This document shows positions 1,278-62,098 of a stretch of DNA of 64,000 nucleotides, one piece after another (the first letter of the stretch is position 1; each line of letters starts with the position of its first letter). Position numbers and translations under genes: made by a program. The stretch is taken from positions 1-64,000 of the forward strand of contig JACRDG010000020.1 in NCBI GenBank assembly GCA_016218715.1. The letters are read 5' to 3'. A model generated the notes under the pieces. The model worked only from the letters and a program-made list of their open reading frames with translations, was not told the DNA's origin and ran no database searches. The DNA comes from Desulfomonile tiedjei. GTDB taxonomy: Bacteria; Desulfobacterota; Desulfomonilia; Desulfomonilales; Desulfomonilaceae.

Positions 1278-2174
1278 TCACCAGGTCGCCTTGAGAAGCC
1301 CTTTGGGGCGAAAGATCAAGACGATTACCACTGCGACGTACGGAAAAACGATGGCAAACTGGGGCCAGACGAGGATTCCGAGCGAGTCGGTCAATCCGAA
1401 AATCAGCGCTCCCAGAAGCGCTCCCCACATGTTGCCGAGGCCTCCAATGATAACAATCAGGAAAGCTTCCATGATGAGGCTATGATCCATGCCCTGGGTG
1501 ATGTTTTGGGTCGGGGCCACCAAAGCGCCACCGAGGCCCGCCAGAAAACATCCGATGACGAAGACGAAAGCAAAGACCCAGCTCACGTTGATCCCAACCG
1601 CAGCCACCATTTCCCGGTCGACGGCCGCTGCTCGGGAGATCTTACCTATCTTGGTCTTGTTGGTCAGGAACCAGAGACCCAGGGCGACCAGCGGTCCGAT
1701 GATCAACAAGAAGAGGTTGTAACGAGGAAACGGCATGCCGAGAACTGAAAATGACCCCTGCAGCATGCTTGGAGCCGACAGCGACCGGTAGTCCGAACCC
1801 CAGGCGAGCTTGACCAAGTCCCGTGCGAGCAGCATAAACGCGAAGGTGAACAGGAGCAGCATCAGATGCTCCCGGTCGTACAGGCGACAGAACAGACCCC
1901 GCTCGACCACGAGGCTTATGAGCGCAACGCAAAGAGGGGCCAGGACAAGTGCAAGCCAGAAGCCCGTAGATCCCCCGCCGAAAGCCGTCGCAATGGAGTA
2001 CGCTAGAAACGCGCCGAGCATGTACAACGACCCGTGGGCCACATTGGGAATTCTCAGCACCCCGAGTACGAGGCTCAGCCCGGAGGAAACAATGAACAGA
2101 ATCGTGGTCCTGCTCAGACCTACGAGAAATTGCTGGCAGAACGCGGAGAATGTGAGGTTGGTCGCGAATTCCAT
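1278..2174 (-). CDS. livH: Branched-chain amino acid-type ABC transporter permease LivH
   Basis: About 298-residue polytopic permease, the partner of LivM. The reading frame is open to 2234, but the ATG at 2174 gives the usual LivH length and N-terminus (MEFATNLTFSAFCQQFLVGL). The early motif NVAHGSLYMLGAFLAY corresponds to the conserved LivH motif NFAHGxxxMLGAY. Later motifs include AAAVDREMVAAVGIN, the coupling loop, and GGLGNMWGALLGALI near the C-terminus. No strong Shine-Dalgarno sequence precedes either candidate start, so the start carries some uncertainty. It sits between the substrate-binding protein gene and livM. Confidence 0.9.
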   Translation of the reverse strand: MEFATNLTFSAFCQQFLVGLSRTTILFIVSSGLSLVLGVLRIPNVAHGSLYMLGAFLAYSIATAFGGGSTGFWLALVLAPLCVALISLVVERGLFCRLYDREHLMLLLFTFAFMLLARDLVKLAWGSDYRSLSAPSMLQGSFSVLGMPFPRYNLFLLIIGPLVALGLWFLTNKTKIGKISRAAAVDREMVAAVGINVSWVFAFVFVIGCFLAGLGGALVAPTQNITQGMDHSLIMEAFLIVIIGGLGNMWGALLGALIFGLTDSLGILVWPQFAIVFPYVAVVIVLIFRPKGLLKATW

Positions 2175-2350
2175 GCTCGAAAACTTTCGGTCACGGTGTT
2201 GCCCTTGGTGGACGCTCCGATAGCCTGAGGGCACCAGTCCCTGTCGCGGGCATCGGCAGGAAGTGGGCCCGGAATTGCCCTCCGGACCTCCTCTGCCGCT
2301 GTCATTCCAGGTCGCTCATCTTCAAGAAAGAGCGCGCGGTACCGCCAGAC

Positions 2351-3568
2351 CTACTTTTCCCTCGCTTTCTTGATATCTTCAGCGGACGGCATGGTCTGCT
2401 CGCCGGGAATGGTCACAATGTCCGTAGCGATGAGGAAGTCGGAGTCGGGGGCTTTCTTGGTCTTCCCCATGAACAGGGGGAGCACGACCTGGTTGTCCAC
2501 TGCTCTCACCGTCAGTTTTCCAATGGGACTGTCGATGGTTAGCCCCGACAGGGCCTGGGCAAATTTCTCCGGGTCAACCTTACCGGCCTTCTCATAGGCC
2601 TTTGCGATGAAATCGGCGGTAAACCATCCGATCACGCTTCCGAAGGAGGGCTGCCGGCCGTAAGCCTTCTTAAATTCTTCGGCAAAGGCCTTATTTTCGG
2701 GGGTATCCGGGTAATAGAAGTAGTAGTTGGCGGTCCCCATGACACCTTCCGGAGCTTCCTGACCCAGCGGCCGCAGCGTGGACAATTCCGTGGCAGTATG
2801 CATGAAAAACGGCACGCGTTCGTTGAACCCGGTGGCTTTTGCCGCCTTCAGGAAAGGAACACAGCCGGCGCCGCCCGTGGCGACGATCACCGCGTCGGGT
2901 TTTGCAGCGAGAATCGAGGTGATGTACGGAGTGAAGTCCGGCTCACCGACCTTCCACCAGGATTCGCCCAGCAGTTTGACGTCGGGTTTCAGCTTTTTCA
3001 GATTGCTCCAAACTCCCTCGGCAATGGCGTGTCCGTACTCGTAGTCATCGCCGGCAATCCAATAATTGACGTAGGGGAGTTTCGCAAGCGCCGCTGCGGC
3101 CCCTTTGCCCACCATCTCAGTGTTTTCATTCATGGAAAAGACATATGGGTGGCCCTTGGCCCCTGTGATGTTCGCGCTCTTGGAATAGGTGACGAGGAAC
3201 GGTATCTTCTCTTTCTTCGCCAGATCGGAAACAGCAAGTGCGACGGCGCTGTTTATGGTCCCCACGAGAAGGTCGACCTTCTCGCGCATGATCAGCTCCT
3301 TGGCCGCGCTGAGTCCGAGATCGACCTTGAATTTGTCGTCGCGCGTTATGAAGGTGATTTGTCTGCCGAGCACGCCTCCTTTGGCATTGATCTTATCCAC
3401 AGCCAGTTTGAACCCATCCCGCACGTCGTTGGTATAGGTGCTCGGAGGGCCGGAGTACGAGTCGACGATACCGATCTTTATCGGATCGGCTGCCTGCACA
3501 TAAGTTCCGGTCATCGCAAGACCTGCGATCAGCACCGCACAAAGGACTACCCAGGACAACTTCTTCAT
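2351..3568 (-). CDS. Periplasmic substrate-binding protein of the LivJK / type I periplasmic binding family
   Basis: 405 residues. A Sec signal peptide is visible: MKK, a hydrophobic core to about residue 20, and an AxA-type cleavage before ADPIKIG. The mature protein begins with the type I periplasmic binding fold signature (IKIGIVDSYSGPPSTYTNDVRDGFKLAVDKINAKGGVLGR, read in parts). It captures ligand in the periplasm and delivers it to LivHM. It is first in the importer operon, 176 bp ahead of livH, a spacing normal for highly expressed binding proteins. The ligand is not determined; proteins of this branch in anaerobes often bind amino acids or aromatic acids. Confidence 0.9.
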   Translation of the reverse strand: MKKLSWVVLCAVLIAGLAMTGTYVQAADPIKIGIVDSYSGPPSTYTNDVRDGFKLAVDKINAKGGVLGRQITFITRDDKFKVDLGLSAAKELIMREKVDLLVGTINSAVALAVSDLAKKEKIPFLVTYSKSANITGAKGHPYVFSMNENTEMVGKGAAAALAKLPYVNYWIAGDDYEYGHAIAEGVWSNLKKLKPDVKLLGESWWKVGEPDFTPYITSILAAKPDAVIVATGGAGCVPFLKAAKATGFNERVPFFMHTATELSTLRPLGQEAPEGVMGTANYYFYYPDTPENKAFAEEFKKAYGRQPSFGSVIGWFTADFIAKAYEKAGKVDPEKFAQALSGLTIDSPIGKLTVRAVDNQVVLPLFMGKTKKAPDSDFLIATDIVTIPGEQTMPSAEDIKKAREK

Positions 3569-4232
3569 GAGTATGGCTCCTTATTCTTGAGACGTTTTCG
3601 GGGACCCCGCCCCTCGGACGGGCAGGCCGCCTTTACGGCGAGAGAAGCGGTTTCTATGGACCTCAACGCCCCTCGCGGGGGACTACGCCAACCTGTTCTG
3701 TCAGTAGAGCCGAGTCTGTGCAATCATAAAACGTCATCGGCATCGGTTGTCAAGGAATTCCTCCTCTGACCGTATGCCTCCGAAGCCGCCAGGGTTGATT
3801 GGCGCCCTGCCTGACAATACCACTGCAGACGCGGCGAAGCAATCGCGCGAAAACCGCGCAGGAGGTTCGCTCCGCGGAACGCGTAATCGTCTCCGCCTTC
3901 GCAAGGATACGCCTGAGGGAGTTGCAGAGCCAGCGAACGATTCCGGTGGTCCTGCAAAAGAAGTTGACCCGCGGCCCCCGTTCCACGTATGGTCTAGCAG
4001 GGTATCACTCCGTGGCGGGGTATCGTCCGACAATTGACATTTCCCATGCACGGGTCAAGGATCGTGGATTTGACCGGCGTATTCATTTGGTAATCTCTGA
4101 TCGCCCCGGACGCGTGTTGCACTCATGTCGCACCTCTGGGATTTCATGGAACTAAACGGTATTGAAGGCCAATCGCATGAGCCATCGGGGGGAATCCCCC
4201 TGATGAGTCTGGCTCACAGGCAGAGGAGATCC
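3569..4232. other. Intergenic region between divergent importer operon and sensor kinase
   Basis: 664 bp that must hold the promoters of two divergently transcribed units. Apart from the candidate minus-strand promoter at 3723-3753 and the kinase Shine-Dalgarno AGGAG just before 4233, nothing was recognised. The overlapping short frames on both strands (for example 3734-4051 and 3747-4037) have no family character. Confidence 0.6.
3723..3753 (-). promoter_or_regulatory. Candidate sigma70 promoter for the importer operon
   Basis: On the minus strand TTGACA (3753-3748) and TATGAT (3728-3723) lie 19 bp apart, longer than the ideal 17. It points at the binding-protein gene about 155 bp downstream. 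Visual match only. Confidence 0.35.
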
Positions 4233-5753
4233 ATGGACAACCCGCCTACGCCGAGCCCATCGGACCGTTCCCTGAAGTCCGAATCGGGAGAGACGGCCAT
4301 ACGCGCGGCACTCGTTCATCAACTCTATTCGCTGTCAACGGTAACCATCTATGGCGTCACCGTGGCTGGGATCGTCCTGACCGCATCTTTGTGGCATGGC
4401 GTCGGGCATGAACTCCTCCTGTCTTGGCTGCTTGTCTTGCTGCTCGCACAGGGTGCTCGCTTCGCAGTCGCCTCCGCGTTTGTCAGAGCTGCGCCCCAAG
4501 GCCCTGAGGCAATTCGGTGGGGTGCATGGTTCATCCTCGGAACCGCTTTGACTCAGCTCTGGTGCGGACTCGCGGGCATTCTTCTCTTTCCTCAGTCAAG
4601 CCTTCTGCTGCAGGTTCTGCTCGCTGCGTTTATCACCATCGTAGCAGCCACGGTCACCGTGGCCCACGCGGCAGTAACCCTATGTTACGTCTCCTCACTG
4701 CTCGTCACGGTGCTCCCCATCCTTGGCCGACTTTTTTACGAAGGCGGAGAGACTGACGCCGCACTCGGGATGGTCGGGGTCGTGTATACCGGTGCGCTCC
4801 TGGCTACCGGGCGGGCTGCGCATAAGATGATGTTCGATTCAATAAGATTGAGGCTCGAAAAGGATGACCTCGTCCAGGAACTGCAGCAGGCGGGGCAGAC
4901 CCTTGAACTCAGAATCAAGGAACGTACCGCCCAACTCCTGGAGGTGAACGAACAGCTACGGCGGGAGATCTTGGAGCGAGAACAGACGGAGGACAAGCTC
5001 GAGAAATCCCTGGTCACCGCGGTGCGTCTCCGAAGCGAGGCAGAGGCAGCGAATATGGCCAAAGGCCAATTCCTGGCCATGATGAGTCACGAAATCCGGA
5101 CCCCCCTCAACGCGGTCATAGGATTTTCGGAAATGATGCAGGATGGGCTCACAGGACCGCTGAACGATCAGCAGATGGAATTCGTGGGCTATGTGGTTGA
5201 AGGCGGGCGTCACCTTCTTCGGCTGCTGGATGACATCCTCGACCTGTCAAGCATAGATGCCGGAAGGCTCAGTTTGCAGACATCGGACGTCCACGTCCCG
5301 GCAGTGCTCTATGCGTGTGTATCAATGATAAAGGAACGGGCGCTGAGGCACCGCTTGTGCGTCGAAGTCCAGATCGGCCAAGATCTCGCCGATGCTCGAG
5401 TAAGCGCGGACGAGGTAAGACTTAAGCAGATCCTGATCAATCTACTCTCCAATGCGACGAAATTCACTCCGGACGGGGGAAAGATCGAACTCGAGGCCCG
5501 CAGAGACGGAGATGACTTGGTGATAAGCCTCAGAGACTCCGGGATCGGTCTTCTTCCCGAGGACCAACATCGCATTTTCGAGGCCTTTGAACAGGTGCAG
5601 TCGTCCTATTCACGACCTTATGGCGGTACCGGCCTCGGGCTCGCGCTCACGAGAAAGCTCGTCGAGTCGCACGGGGGACGGATCTGGGCTGAAAGCGCAG
5701 GGCCAGGGATGGGGAGCACGTTCCACTTCACCATCCCCTTCAAGCCAGTGTGA
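4233..5753 (+). CDS. Membrane-bound sensor histidine kinase
   Basis: 506 residues when started at the ATG at 4233, which has AGGAG four bases ahead; the frame opens at 4125 but those codons lack kinase character. Residues about 25-190 contain five or six hydrophobic helices, probably a membrane sensor domain. A coiled coil follows (about 200-270), then HisKA with the phospho-acceptor H286 in SHEIRTPLNAVIGFSEMM. The HATPase domain has the N box (QILINLLSNATKFTP), the G1 box DSGIGL and the G2 box GGTGLGLALTRKLVE. No receiver domain and no adjacent response regulator gene is seen, so it is an orphan here. The stimulus is unknown. Confidence 0.93.
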   Translation: MDNPPTPSPSDRSLKSESGETAIRAALVHQLYSLSTVTIYGVTVAGIVLTASLWHGVGHELLLSWLLVLLLAQGARFAVASAFVRAAPQGPEAIRWGAWFILGTALTQLWCGLAGILLFPQSSLLLQVLLAAFITIVAATVTVAHAAVTLCYVSSLLVTVLPILGRLFYEGGETDAALGMVGVVYTGALLATGRAAHKMMFDSIRLRLEKDDLVQELQQAGQTLELRIKERTAQLLEVNEQLRREILEREQTEDKLEKSLVTAVRLRSEAEAANMAKGQFLAMMSHEIRTPLNAVIGFSEMMQDGLTGPLNDQQMEFVGYVVEGGRHLLRLLDDILDLSSIDAGRLSLQTSDVHVPAVLYACVSMIKERALRHRLCVEVQIGQDLADARVSADEVRLKQILINLLSNATKFTPDGGKIELEARRDGDDLVISLRDSGIGLLPEDQHRIFEAFEQVQSSYSRPYGGTGLGLALTRKLVESHGGRIWAESAGPGMGSTFHFTIPFKPV

Positions 5754-58304: not shown

Positions 58305-58363
58305 GGTGGGACCGGCATCCTGCCTGTCCCACAAGAAATGACGGGCGGGACGTTTGTCCCACC
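58305..58363. repeat. Second copy of the GGTGGGAC...GTCCCACC repeat family
   Basis: GGTGGGACCGGCATCCTGCC begins the element and GTTTGTCCCACC ends it. The inner GCCTGTCCCAC pairs with the left arm. The layout (two hairpins in 59 bp) matches the copy at 6009-6067. It lies between convergent genes. Confidence 0.75.
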
Positions 58364-58404: not shown

Positions 58405-59487
58405 TCAGTGTCCTGCAAGCCAGCAGCCCGGGTCAGACTTGAAGGGATCGTTGCTCATGGCATAGGAAAGGCACCTGAGTCCGCCCCTGCACAACCCGAC
58501 ATAGCTACAACCTTCGCATCCCTCGCTGCATGTGCTTCGGTCGCGCAGAGCACGCAGGAACTCGCTCTTGCGATACAGCTCCTCTAGCGAAATCTCACCA
58601 AGGTTGCCAACACGGACGGGCATACGCCGGCATGGGTAGACGTCTCCATTGGGCATGACCGTGATGAGGGTATCACCTGCAGTGCAGTGATAGGGCGTGC
58701 CTCCTGCCAGCAGGAACTGGAGAGCGCGATGCATGGCGATCTCGGTCCGACCGAACCAGCGCCTCGATGAATCGTTGCGAGCCTTATGAACGATTTGGAG
58801 AAACTCAAGCGTTTCTTCGGGCGTCAAGCTTTGCTCCCTGAGACTTGAGCCTGAACCCATGGGAATCAGTCGATCGGCCCAGACGCGGGCGACTCGCAGA
58901 TGCCGCCCCAGCCGGGCGACCTCGGCAAATTCCCTGAAATTGCCTCGATGCGCAGTAAACGAGATGAAAGTCCGGATGTGTCGTCGTACGAGATGTCCGA
59001 TGGCCCTGATCGTTCGTGCGAAGCTCCCTGCTCCCCGTATCTTGTCGTGAGACTCCTGTGAGCCCTCTATACTGACCTGCACAAATGCCGGAGCCAGGCC
59101 TTTCAGATGACGCGCCACGGAGTCGTCAACCGAGTGTCCGTTGGTAAGAATGGCGAAACTAAAGCGAGTTCTGTGGGCGGCAAGAACCTCCAGAAGATCC
59201 GGGAAGTCCTCCCGGGTAAACGGCTCGCCGCCGGTCACCGTGATGTGACCTCGCACAGGCCGCGAAGTCTCATCCTGCCATCGGTTCAGTAAGTCCGCGA
59301 ACTGATCCAATATGCCGAGTAGGTCACGGAATCCGAGTTCTGACCCGGCGTACGAGTCCTGGTAGCAGTGGGCGCATCGGAGGTTACAACGCTCCGTGAT
59401 ATGCCACTGAAGCAGCAGGCCACGTGGGACATGTTCCTTTCGACGACATGCATGGCCAATTCTCTTGCCGGATGGAATCACTCTCAC
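58405..59487 (-). CDS. Radical SAM/SPASM enzyme, candidate peptide maturase
   Basis: 360 residues. GTG 59487 overlaps the stop of the upstream gene (GTGA), giving the start; reading further upstream only translates the shifted Gly/Cys repeat into Trp/Arg. The radical SAM cluster motif is C34-x3-C38-x2-C41 (ERCNLRCAHCYQ), with TGGEPF and VSIEGSQESHD following. The C-terminal SPASM-type cysteines are CTAG, CRRM, then CSEGCEGCSYVGLC and CRGGLRC and a final PGCW, ligands for auxiliary Fe-S clusters. This enzyme class makes thioether, C-C or epimer changes in ribosomal peptides. The obvious candidate substrate is the Gly/Cys tail encoded directly before it; that link is inference. Confidence 0.9.
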   Translation of the reverse strand: MRVIPSGKRIGHACRRKEHVPRGLLLQWHITERCNLRCAHCYQDSYAGSELGFRDLLGILDQFADLLNRWQDETSRPVRGHITVTGGEPFTREDFPDLLEVLAAHRTRFSFAILTNGHSVDDSVARHLKGLAPAFVQVSIEGSQESHDKIRGAGSFARTIRAIGHLVRRHIRTFISFTAHRGNFREFAEVARLGRHLRVARVWADRLIPMGSGSSLREQSLTPEETLEFLQIVHKARNDSSRRWFGRTEIAMHRALQFLLAGGTPYHCTAGDTLITVMPNGDVYPCRRMPVRVGNLGEISLEELYRKSEFLRALRDRSTCSEGCEGCSYVGLCRGGLRCLSYAMSNDPFKSDPGCWLAGH

Positions 59488-60440
59488 CCGCCTCCACAGC
59501 CGCCACAGCCTCCGCCGCCACAACCACCACCGCCGCCACCACAACCACCGCCACCGCCACAACCTCCACCACAACCTCCACCCCAACCACCAGGATTTGC
59601 CGCGGACTGTCTGAACATCTTACTCAAGTAAGCGTAAGACGTGTCGGTGAGCACGCTCACCCCGAAGAGCGATACCAGAAGCAGGAGCGTTGTGTCCGTA
59701 ACACCGGACATGGCAGCCTTCGGCTTGAGTTCTTCGAAGACACCCTGAATCCTTTTCAGGTAATCTCGCCCCAGATGGCTCAGCCGTGGCGGCCGACATG
59801 CGAACACGAGAAAGAGAAGCGAGATGATGCCCATCAAGACAAGAAACATCACATTATGTCGCCCTTTTGCCAGGGCTACTATCAGTTTGTACGCTCCCAG
59901 GAACAGGATGATGAGCGCGCCTACCGAGCCGACGCGCCACGCAGCCTCCTTCACTTCAGTGGGACAGAGTATTTGTTGCCCTTGAAGCTTGCTCTCATAA
60001 TCCCCACAGAGCTTTTTCATGTTTGAAGACAGCGATTCGTCTTGAAAGATCTCGGCTGCGAAACGTGGGGAAGAGAAGAACCCGTACACCTTCCGTTCCA
60101 TGGTCGCTAAATGTCGCGGGTCAGGATGGTCCGACTTCCGCTTCAGTCGCTCCTCAGTCAATCCCCACCACCACTTCTTCTCATCGAATTCCAAATAGCC
60201 TCGTTGGATCAAATTGAAGATCGCAACGCGGGTGACTTCATTTTCCCCGCCACGTAAGTACGCGATTTCGTAGGGGTCAGGGTCCGCGCCGAGAGGCGGC
60301 GGTGGCAGGGCCGCGGTTGGGTCGCTGGAGCGTATTCTCCACCAGCAGCCTGCCAATGTTGCCACGATAACGCATCCGTACAGGAGCAGGAACTGCGGAC
60401 CGTACATATCTGCGATGAAGTTGTGCGTCCACCAGGACAT
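59484..60440 (-). CDS. Membrane protein with TIGR04222-like domain and Gly/Cys-rich C-terminal tail
   Basis: 318 residues, ATG at 60440 with AGGGA ahead. One hydrophobic helix lies at about 14-34. A cytosolic or periplasmic domain follows with DPYEIAYLRGGENEV and LIQRGYLEF, which fits the TIGR04222 family from memory. Two helices at about 172-215 and a hydrophobic segment near 255-275 complete the membrane part. Residues 284-318 are Gly except for one Trp and six Cys, spaced 4, 6, 7, 5 and 3 residues apart. The tail is at the extreme C-terminus, as in precursor peptides or metal-binding extensions. The downstream radical SAM gene is translationally coupled. Confidence 0.85.
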   Translation of the reverse strand: MSWWTHNFIADMYGPQFLLLYGCVIVATLAGCWWRIRSSDPTAALPPPPLGADPDPYEIAYLRGGENEVTRVAIFNLIQRGYLEFDEKKWWWGLTEERLKRKSDHPDPRHLATMERKVYGFFSSPRFAAEIFQDESLSSNMKKLCGDYESKLQGQQILCPTEVKEAAWRVGSVGALIILFLGAYKLIVALAKGRHNVMFLVLMGIISLLFLVFACRPPRLSHLGRDYLKRIQGVFEELKPKAAMSGVTDTTLLLLVSLFGVSVLTDTSYAYLSKMFRQSAANPGGWGGGCGGGCGGGGGCGGGGGGCGGGGCGGCGGG

Positions 60441-60450
60441 GACGCTGTCC

Positions 60451-61194
60451 CTACACCGTGTCCACGAGCGCTGCAGCTTGTTGCACCGTCATCATGAAGC
60501 GACCGTAGAGTTGCTTCAATTCCTCGGTGTCCGGTTTCACCCGGCCGCTCTTTAGAGCGTACACGTCCCGAAGCGGCTGAGCGTCGAGCCCTATTCTTTC
60601 GGCCGCCTCGATGATTTCGGGCTTGGTAGTTACGGCTTGTCCGGTCTTGAGTTCCGCCAGAGTGTTGAGGCTCGTGAGAAAAGACGAGATGGCTCGCGCT
60701 AGCGTGCTCTCGATCAGTTCAGGACGGTGAACCCGTTGCAGGTAGAATTGCCGCAGACGCAGTAGCAAGTTAGTGATTTCCTGAGCGCACCGAAGCTTGA
60801 CATGGTCACGGGCAATAGTCAGACCAGCCAGCACATCCTTTCCCCAGACCACGTAGTGATGGCGCTGCATGTCAAGGAATTTGACTGGAAATACCTCGGC
60901 AGAGAGGGGGAGGTCTCTTTCGCAGAGCAGCAGCGGCGCCAAAGACCAGTCGCGGACGGCTCCCCGAATAATCGGGGCAGCTTTGTCCAATACAGCGACA
61001 GTGGCCTCATCCAGCACTATCAGCAGGTTGACGTTAGAAGTGTCAGGGATGTACTCCCCCTTTGCCAGTCCCCCGTAGAGAATGACCGACACGAGCCGGT
61101 CGCCCAGGGCCTCGACGAGTTGTGCGCACAAACGTGCCTGCCCCTCTTGCACGATCGCCGGCAATACTGGTGCCGTCGTCTCACTGGATGCCAT
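60451..61194 (-). CDS. Degenerate nucleotidyltransferase-fold protein
   Basis: 247 residues, ATG 61194 with GAGGAGGTG ahead. Residues about 38-61 follow the minimal nucleotidyltransferase motif but with changes: LYGGLAKGEY instead of GSxARGE, and TSNVNLLIVL where active enzymes have the metal-binding DxD (S-D-I-D-L). Both Asp positions read Asn (N54, N56), so catalysis is unlikely. The C-terminal 110 residues are helical (about 140-245) and may form a HEPN-like or substrate-binding domain. It ends 10 bp before the Gly/Cys protein gene, so it is first in that three-gene unit. Function is unknown; an adaptor or sensor role is a guess. Confidence 0.8.
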   Translation of the reverse strand: MASSETTAPVLPAIVQEGQARLCAQLVEALGDRLVSVILYGGLAKGEYIPDTSNVNLLIVLDEATVAVLDKAAPIIRGAVRDWSLAPLLLCERDLPLSAEVFPVKFLDMQRHHYVVWGKDVLAGLTIARDHVKLRCAQEITNLLLRLRQFYLQRVHRPELIESTLARAISSFLTSLNTLAELKTGQAVTTKPEIIEAAERIGLDAQPLRDVYALKSGRVKPDTEELKQLYGRFMMTVQQAAALVDTV

Positions 61195-61309: not shown

Positions 61310-62074
61310 TCAGGCACTCTCTTTCATTTTGAAGCGCCACATGCAGAACTGCTCGTCAGGGACTCGATCCGGCGGGCACCATACGCATTCGGTTTCGATC
61401 CGGGGATCGATGGCCCGGGTAAAGTTTGAGTACTCGACGATCCCGGCGGACTTGCACGGGTAGTCGTCCATCTGTTTACGCCGCCGGGCCGATTGCACGC
61501 GGCATTCGGTCATGCGGAACAGGAGCGACCCGTCTTCGTCCCAAGAGGACTCATGAGCGTTGATCGTGGCATAGATCCTCAGCTTGAGTGCCCTTTCCAG
61601 GGCCGGCAGGCCCTCTCTCACGCCGATGCCGAGATGCATGCGGATCTTGAACGCCTCCATCTGAGCGAAATGGGACCAGCAGCTGTCGTTGACCGCCTTG
61701 GCCGTGTCCATGCCTGAAACAGATTCCACCGCCTGAAACCAGAGGCCGTCGCTCGTCACCCAGGTCTTCGCAATATCCGCGATGAGGAGCAGGAGGTCTT
61801 CCCGCGATTTTTCCAGGAGCGCTCTCGGGATTCCGTCTTCCAACTCGATGCCGAAGTGAGGCGCGAGCCGGTTGAGTGCCAACGGAGCATAGACGTTCAG
61901 GACTTCCCGATCCCGTTTTAGCGCTTCTTCCGAGCCCAGTGTGTGCAGGGTTTCCGTGAACCACATTCCGTAATGCACGAGCACATCACCGAGAAAGACC
62001 CCCACGAGCCGGAGAAGCTCGTCCCTGGGAAGCTCGGTGATGTCCATCGCCTTCTTCGATCCCTCGTTCGGCAT
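61310..62074 (-). CDS. DUF6125-like protein, related to L-2-amino-thiazoline-4-carboxylate hydrolase family
   Basis: 254 residues from ATG 62074 (GGAGGG ahead). The N-terminal half is helical (LPRDELLRLVGVFLGDVLVHYGMWF, in parts). The C-terminal half has Cys residues in FRMTECRVQSARRRKQMDDYPCKSAG and ECVWCPPD, the layout I associate with DUF6125/ATC-hydrolase-like proteins. Catalytic residues are not established. It is followed by no close gene; moaC lies 24 bp upstream, so it may share the hisD-moaC transcript. Confidence 0.7.
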   Translation of the reverse strand: MPNEGSKKAMDITELPRDELLRLVGVFLGDVLVHYGMWFTETLHTLGSEEALKRDREVLNVYAPLALNRLAPHFGIELEDGIPRALLEKSREDLLLLIADIAKTWVTSDGLWFQAVESVSGMDTAKAVNDSCWSHFAQMEAFKIRMHLGIGVREGLPALERALKLRIYATINAHESSWDEDGSLLFRMTECRVQSARRRKQMDDYPCKSAGIVEYSNFTRAIDPRIETECVWCPPDRVPDEQFCMWRFKMKESA

Positions 62075-62098
62075 AGCTACCCTCCGCATCGAGGCAAA

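Follow-up and report, generated by a model that had tools for sequence, protein, structure and literature searches.

A radical SAM/SPASM enzyme paired with the Gly/Cys tail of a TIGR04222 membrane protein: a candidate maturase-substrate system

Introduction

TIGR04222 proteins were proposed in 2025 to be membrane-bound, protein-sized precursors for MNIO enzymes (Antoine et al., PMC12452194). Many TIGR04222 clusters lack an MNIO gene, the published reading places the tails of these proteins in the periplasm, and a radical SAM partner is not mentioned (PMC12452194). For radical SAM chemistry on peptides, sactipeptide thioethers are known to form on Gly, and a related enzyme, the anaerobic sulfatase maturase (anSME), oxidizes Cys at C-beta (PMC8326336).

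The locus considered here lies in a 64,000-nucleotide stretch of Desulfomonile tiedjei DNA, analysed as a whole (the window). It shares with the TIGR04222-MNIO systems the family of the tail-bearing protein (the carrier) and a low-complexity, Cys-containing C-terminus; it differs in its modifier, which here would be a radical SAM/SPASM enzyme, and in the side of the membrane occupied by the tail, inferred to be cytosolic here and periplasmic there. The enzyme and the carrier are probably, at roughly two chances in three as judged from sequence comparison, a maturase-substrate pair in which the enzyme modifies the Gly/Cys tail while the tail stays fused to its carrier. A sequence-only reading of the window had regarded a membrane-fused substrate as new, a view superseded by the proposal for MNIO enzymes (PMC12452194); the pairing of TIGR04222 with a radical SAM enzyme was not found in a literature search, confined largely to papers outside subscription, that turned up two papers naming TIGR04222. 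Modification of the tail, if it occurs, would mean that radical SAM chemistry reaches the terminus of a whole membrane protein and not a free peptide, a little-explored route to modified peptides held at the membrane. The pair is also a way to test what TIGR04222 proteins do, a question left by the MNIO work.

Organization of the locus

Three genes lie head to tail on the minus strand. The first encodes a 247-residue protein with a nucleotidyltransferase (NTase) fold (60451-61194, minus strand); 10 bp (60441-60450) separate it from the gene for the 318-residue TIGR04222 carrier (59484-60440, minus strand), which overlaps by the four bases GTGA (59484-59487) the gene for the 360-residue radical SAM/SPASM enzyme (58405-59487, minus strand; GTG start at 59487). 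These coordinates confirm the order, the gap and the stop/start overlap first described by the sequence-only reading. No promoter-like site was found for the three-gene unit, and the terminator-like hairpin directly past the stop codon of the radical SAM gene (58344-58363) is a weak candidate, the number of such sites being at chance level. A DUF6125 protein (230 bits) is encoded on the same strand 115 bp upstream of the trio (61310-62089, minus strand).

The radical SAM/SPASM enzyme

The enzyme scores 72.3 bits against the Radical_SAM domain (cut-off 29.5) and 38.2 bits against the SPASM domain (cut-off 21.5). Motif positions and these profile scores agree with the cysteine set expected for such an enzyme from the first inspection of the gene: the CX3CX2C motif of the radical SAM domain (C34, C38, and C41; 59365-59388, minus strand) is kept in all 28 homologues compared, and the seven Cys of the SPASM region (C268, C286, C324, C327, C333, C339, and C355; 58423-58686, minus strand) are kept in 26 or 27 of them. 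The third Cys pair of SPASM domains is usually spaced CX3C; that of the window enzyme is spaced CX5C.

The best-scoring named profiles are SbtM (TIGR04082; 153.8 bits) and the ACGX-system protein (TIGR04340; 136.5 bits); both scores fall short of the curated cut-offs (350 and 400 bits, respectively), so the enzyme belongs to neither family, and no small peptide of the SbtM or ACGX type was seen beside the window gene. Membership of the mycofactocin maturases (117.9 bits; cut-off 265) and of PqqE (83.7 bits; cut-off 381) was rejected on the same grounds. Among solved structures, the closest in sequence are SkfB (the best), PqqE, 5wgg (listed just as a radical SAM domain protein, and presumably CteB), and anSME. 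The enzyme resembles the maturases of sactipeptides and ranthipeptides (SkfB, AlbA, CteB/SCIFF) in joining a radical SAM domain to a SPASM domain and in the Cys-rich nature of its putative substrate, but its scores are far under the cut-offs of these families, and the proposed substrate is nearly pure Gly/Cys and fused to a membrane protein.

The carrier and its Gly/Cys tail

The carrier scores 107.1 bits against TIGR04222 over residues 21-264 (cut-off 43), which makes it a member of the family to which the sequence-only reading had pointed. It fits the family trait of a low-complexity C-terminal region, here a tail formed by the last 35 residues (59487-59591, minus strand); the count of 28 Gly, six Cys, and one Trp, the Trp standing at the start of the tail, bears out the earlier description. 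Across readable carrier tails the number of Cys ranges from one to seven, Gly or Ser comes after each Cys, and a GC-GGCG motif near the end of the tail is nearly invariant. A chance low-complexity repeat in the DNA is ruled out as the origin of the tail: it recurs in frame among homologues of 25-51% identity, it uses a mixture of Gly and of Cys codons, and synonymous changes are seen. In three pairs of close relatives, synonymous and nonsynonymous codon differences within the tail number 8 and 4, 11 and 5, and 5 and 9 (the last from an ungapped comparison). Sactipeptide precursors are free leader-core peptides, whereas this tail is part of a 318-residue membrane protein; free small peptides bearing such a tail were seen only in a Rhodospirillales locus (L055).

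In the predicted structure of the carrier (mean pLDDT 76; below 50 in the tail), a helix at residues 14-38 is followed by a winged-helix-like soluble domain (residues ~56-155; 59976-60275, minus strand) lying between the first and second transmembrane (TM) segments, by membrane helices at residues 161-191 and 198-214, and then by the tail. A structure search returned only middling matches, mostly to long helices; Golgi phosphoprotein 3, the one that covers the soluble domain (Z 8.3, rmsd 5.8, 155 aligned), is too weak a match to be of use.

An alignment of 17 carrier homologues gives a mean Lys+Arg number of 7.9 after TM3 and of 1.3 in the loop between TM2 and TM3, a pattern that by the positive-inside rule indicates a cytosolic tail; a cytosolic tail is also indicated by the carrier of a Gemmatimonadetes locus (L075), in which a single TM helix follows an exported domain. 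From sequence and model together, the tail probably faces the cytosol, where the enzyme could reach it, and the idea of a surface-bound product is doubtful, as charge distribution, predicted fold, and variant carriers all point to the cytosolic side. Residues 246-264, a weakly hydrophobic stretch where the predicted helix has just 11 residues, would still allow a periplasmic tail.

Conservation of the enzyme-tail pair

Within a sample of 297 genomes from the window's phylum, only two, the window genome and G157, encode a TIGR04222 protein. The best match to the enzyme elsewhere in the phylum (58%; next 38%) adjoins the TIGR04222 gene of G157; the two G157 genes have the same 4-bp overlap, and the G157 carrier has six Cys in its tail, as does the window carrier. 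Identity between the two genomes is 56% for the enzyme over the full alignment and 33% for the carrier.

Searching a genome collection with the window and G157 enzymes as queries yields 27 close relatives of 48-64% identity (mostly 50-64%), among them the G157 enzyme itself (locus L060), followed by a drop to 39% or less. Together with the window enzyme these form a single clade of 28 (SH-aLRT support 100) that spans about ten phyla, with members in Thiotrichaceae, Rhodospirillales, Clostridia, Nitrospinota, Verrucomicrobia, Myxococcota, Thermodesulfobacteriota, Gemmatimonadota, Armatimonadota, and a Methanophagales archaeon. A TIGR04222 gene is adjacent in 21 of the 28 clade loci and in no locus of a set of 53 more distant radical SAM genes; for a Gly-Cys tail on any carrier the counts are 24 of 28 and one of 53. 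Clade homologues of the enzyme thus mostly have a Gly/Cys-tailed partner, and the outcome that would have refuted the sequence-only reading, homologues mostly lacking such a partner, is not what is seen. Because enzyme and tail form a conserved pair, the tail is best read as the substrate; in the clade loci, nothing else that could be a substrate recurs next to the enzyme gene.

The clade loci share ancestry and are not independent, so Fisher p-values for the 28 and 53 loci overstate the association, and the NTase gene is missing from most loci. Both points would suit an account in which the three genes adjoin by common descent and do not act together. That account is nonetheless very improbable: the clade spans about ten phyla, the flanking genes are unrelated between loci, gene orders differ, and carriers have changed, whereas neutral linkage would decay.

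Changed carriers and MNIO

At the Gemmatimonadetes locus (L075), a DUF2207-like protein takes the place of the TIGR04222 carrier; its start resembles a signal peptide, its N-terminal domain is DUF2207-like (21.0 bits, just under the cut-off), and it has one TM helix and a tail ending in FGGGGCGGGCGGGCGGGCGG. At the Rhodospirillales locus (L055), the tails are borne by two small peptides encoded in tandem, which have a Tat-like leader (ARREFLK...AHA); one ends in TYHGCGCGG and the other in TYHGCGCGGGSIL. Retention of the tail on such different carriers suggests that the enzyme needs the tail and not the carrier. In a distant Njordarchaeota locus (L121; 866-3363), a 493-residue TM protein with a Gly/Cys tail ending in GCFGCGGCGSCGGCGGCGGCGG is encoded directly before a distant radical SAM/SPASM gene, and this may be an independent origin of the enzyme-tail pairing.

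The Rhodospirillales locus also encodes an MNIO-PqqD-HprK-like fusion with the GCGCGG peptides (1660-4649, minus strand), divergent from the radical SAM gene of the clade; fusion, peptides, and radical SAM enzyme together are a possible two-enzyme RiPP cluster. This arrangement, and the described MNIO-TIGR04222 systems (PMC12452194), would accord with modification of the tail by MNIO or another enzyme, the radical SAM enzyme adding a secondary change or acting on the product. As a general explanation this is improbable, since MNIO (PF05114) has no match in the whole window genome, in a search that finds MNIO in control genomes, and among eight other clade genomes checked it is absent from seven and partially matched in the eighth. 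With MNIO rejected as the tail modifier in the window genome, the radical SAM enzyme seems to stand in as the modifier, which fits a radical SAM branch of the MNIO-TIGR04222 idea, one absent from PMC12452194.

Tails without the enzyme

Among 289 Verrucomicrobia genomes, eight besides G340 encode a TIGR04222 protein; seven of the eight proteins have a Gly/Cys tail of this type, and no genome of the eight encodes the radical SAM enzyme of the clade. The MNIO search gave matches in three of the seven genomes with a Gly/Cys-tailed carrier. The tail therefore does not need the enzyme everywhere, and the link is not obligatory: it is strong from the enzyme's side and, from the tail's side, one of several partnerships.

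The tails of these enzyme-free genomes, and a Cys number varying as widely as from one to seven, speak for a tail that works unmodified as a thiol-rich metal or redox tether, the enzyme docking on the carrier and acting on some other substrate. Such a tether is unlikely, though less so than either alternative above; it leaves unexplained why the tail is retained when the carrier becomes an unrelated protein (L075, L055), and no alternative substrate candidate recurs beside the enzyme.

At Verrucomicrobia loci (L162-L169), the Gly/Cys-tailed TIGR04222 proteins follow, or are fused to, a domain of ~170 residues with no Pfam match; a plant-type glycine-rich-domain identity, considered for the gene upstream of these carriers, received no support from Pfam.

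Proposed modification of the tail

In the preferred reading, that of a maturase and its carrier-fused substrate, the radical SAM/SPASM enzyme would act on the carrier-attached tail at the cytosolic face of the membrane, and the winged-helix-like domain of the carrier could serve as a built-in leader. Since the window tail is essentially Gly and Cys, hydrogen abstraction would be limited to backbone alpha-carbons or the Cys beta-carbon, and this simplicity of composition narrows the possible chemistry to few outcomes. The alpha-carbon route on Gly would give thioether bridges from Cys sulfur to Gly C-alpha, as in sactipeptides; the beta-carbon route would give oxidized Cys, as in anaerobic sulfatase maturation. 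Thioether bridges are mildly favoured over Cys oxidation. The tails of some carriers (L066 and L068) fit several bridges poorly because they hold only one or two Cys. The product would be a membrane-anchored tail, either bridged or metal-binding.

The nucleotidyltransferase-like protein

The structural model of the window NTase (mean pLDDT 91) can be aligned along its full length with adenylyltransferases of the AadA/ANT type (for AadA, Foldseek E 5.8e-7, TM-score 0.57), and its sequence scores 17.6 bits against NTP_transf_2 (Pfam), under the cut-off of 21. It shares its fold with the AadA/ANT aminoglycoside nucleotidyltransferases and differs from them in having N-V-N at the position of the catalytic D-x-D; its relatives have D-x-N or D-x-T there. 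Loss of the second Asp is common to the whole family, and the first is lost only in the window protein. By these motifs the NTase is a probable pseudoenzyme. Its earlier description as an inactive nucleotidyltransferase agrees with the fold and the missing D-x-D and needs amending in one respect, as loss of the second Asp is family-wide and not peculiar to the window; a recently killed enzyme is rejected for that Asp on the same ground.

The NTase gene is adjacent in eight of the 28 loci of the radical SAM clade and was not found in G157, and it is therefore rejected as a core member of the unit. Joint action of the trio, assumed by the sequence-only reading from gene packing, thus finds support in conservation for the pair of enzyme and tail, the NTase being an optional member. 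Genes of the NTase family, in contrast to AadA/ANT, are linked mostly to TPM-domain and LemA genes: a TPM-domain protein with a Gly-rich tail adjoins the NTase homologue in 18 of 22 loci from related genomes (L003-L024), and LemA is also present in several of these loci. NTase and TPM, often with LemA, apparently form a conserved gene set of their own. The TPM-domain (YgcG-like) proteins resemble the carrier in being Gly-rich-tailed membrane proteins beside the same NTase family; they differ in their domain and in tails devoid of Cys, and no radical SAM gene lies beside the TPM genes in the loci read.

Binding of Gly-rich tails by a helper protein would be a plausible common denominator of these contexts. 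In the proposed mechanism the NTase-fold pseudoenzyme would be an optional helper that recognizes such tails, the weakest of the steps put forward here; the link would provide a starting point for studying the Gly-rich tails of TPM proteins. Extended to all these loci, the scheme becomes a bacterial and archaeal family of systems: enzymes of a single radical SAM clade would modify Gly-Cys tails on varied carriers (TIGR04222, DUF2207-type, and small Tat-like peptides) at the cytosolic face, and a pseudo-NTase would recognize Gly-rich tails in the TPM/LemA sets as well as here. A generalization this broad is less likely than not.

Tailless and rearranged loci

At one clade locus (L073) the tail survives as an orphan fragment; elsewhere in that genome an NTase-carrier pair is intact. 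Four clade members (L051, L057, L069, and L078) have no Gly-Cys tail beside the radical SAM gene, which counts against the maturase-substrate reading. A genome-wide search for a TIGR04222 carrier found none in three of these four genomes; the L057 genome has a carrier elsewhere, with one Cys in its tail. Searching the DNA of the four genomes for a Gly-Cys pattern gave no hit for L051, L057, and L078 and, for L069, hits no commoner than with the reversed control. At L078, from the Methanophagales archaeon, the start of a carrier gene is seemingly joined to the end of an NTase gene by a deletion (4682-4977), and the radical SAM gene is intact.

Two further loci are disrupted by decay or by assembly errors: at L052 (4028-6029) the carrier and radical SAM genes are split into several frames, as is the carrier gene at L070 (3963-4947). 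A Nealsonbacteria locus (L079; 3561-7852) has two radical SAM genes and encodes a His/Ser/Cys-repeat protein that resembles HxsA3 (42.2 bits; cut-off 65).
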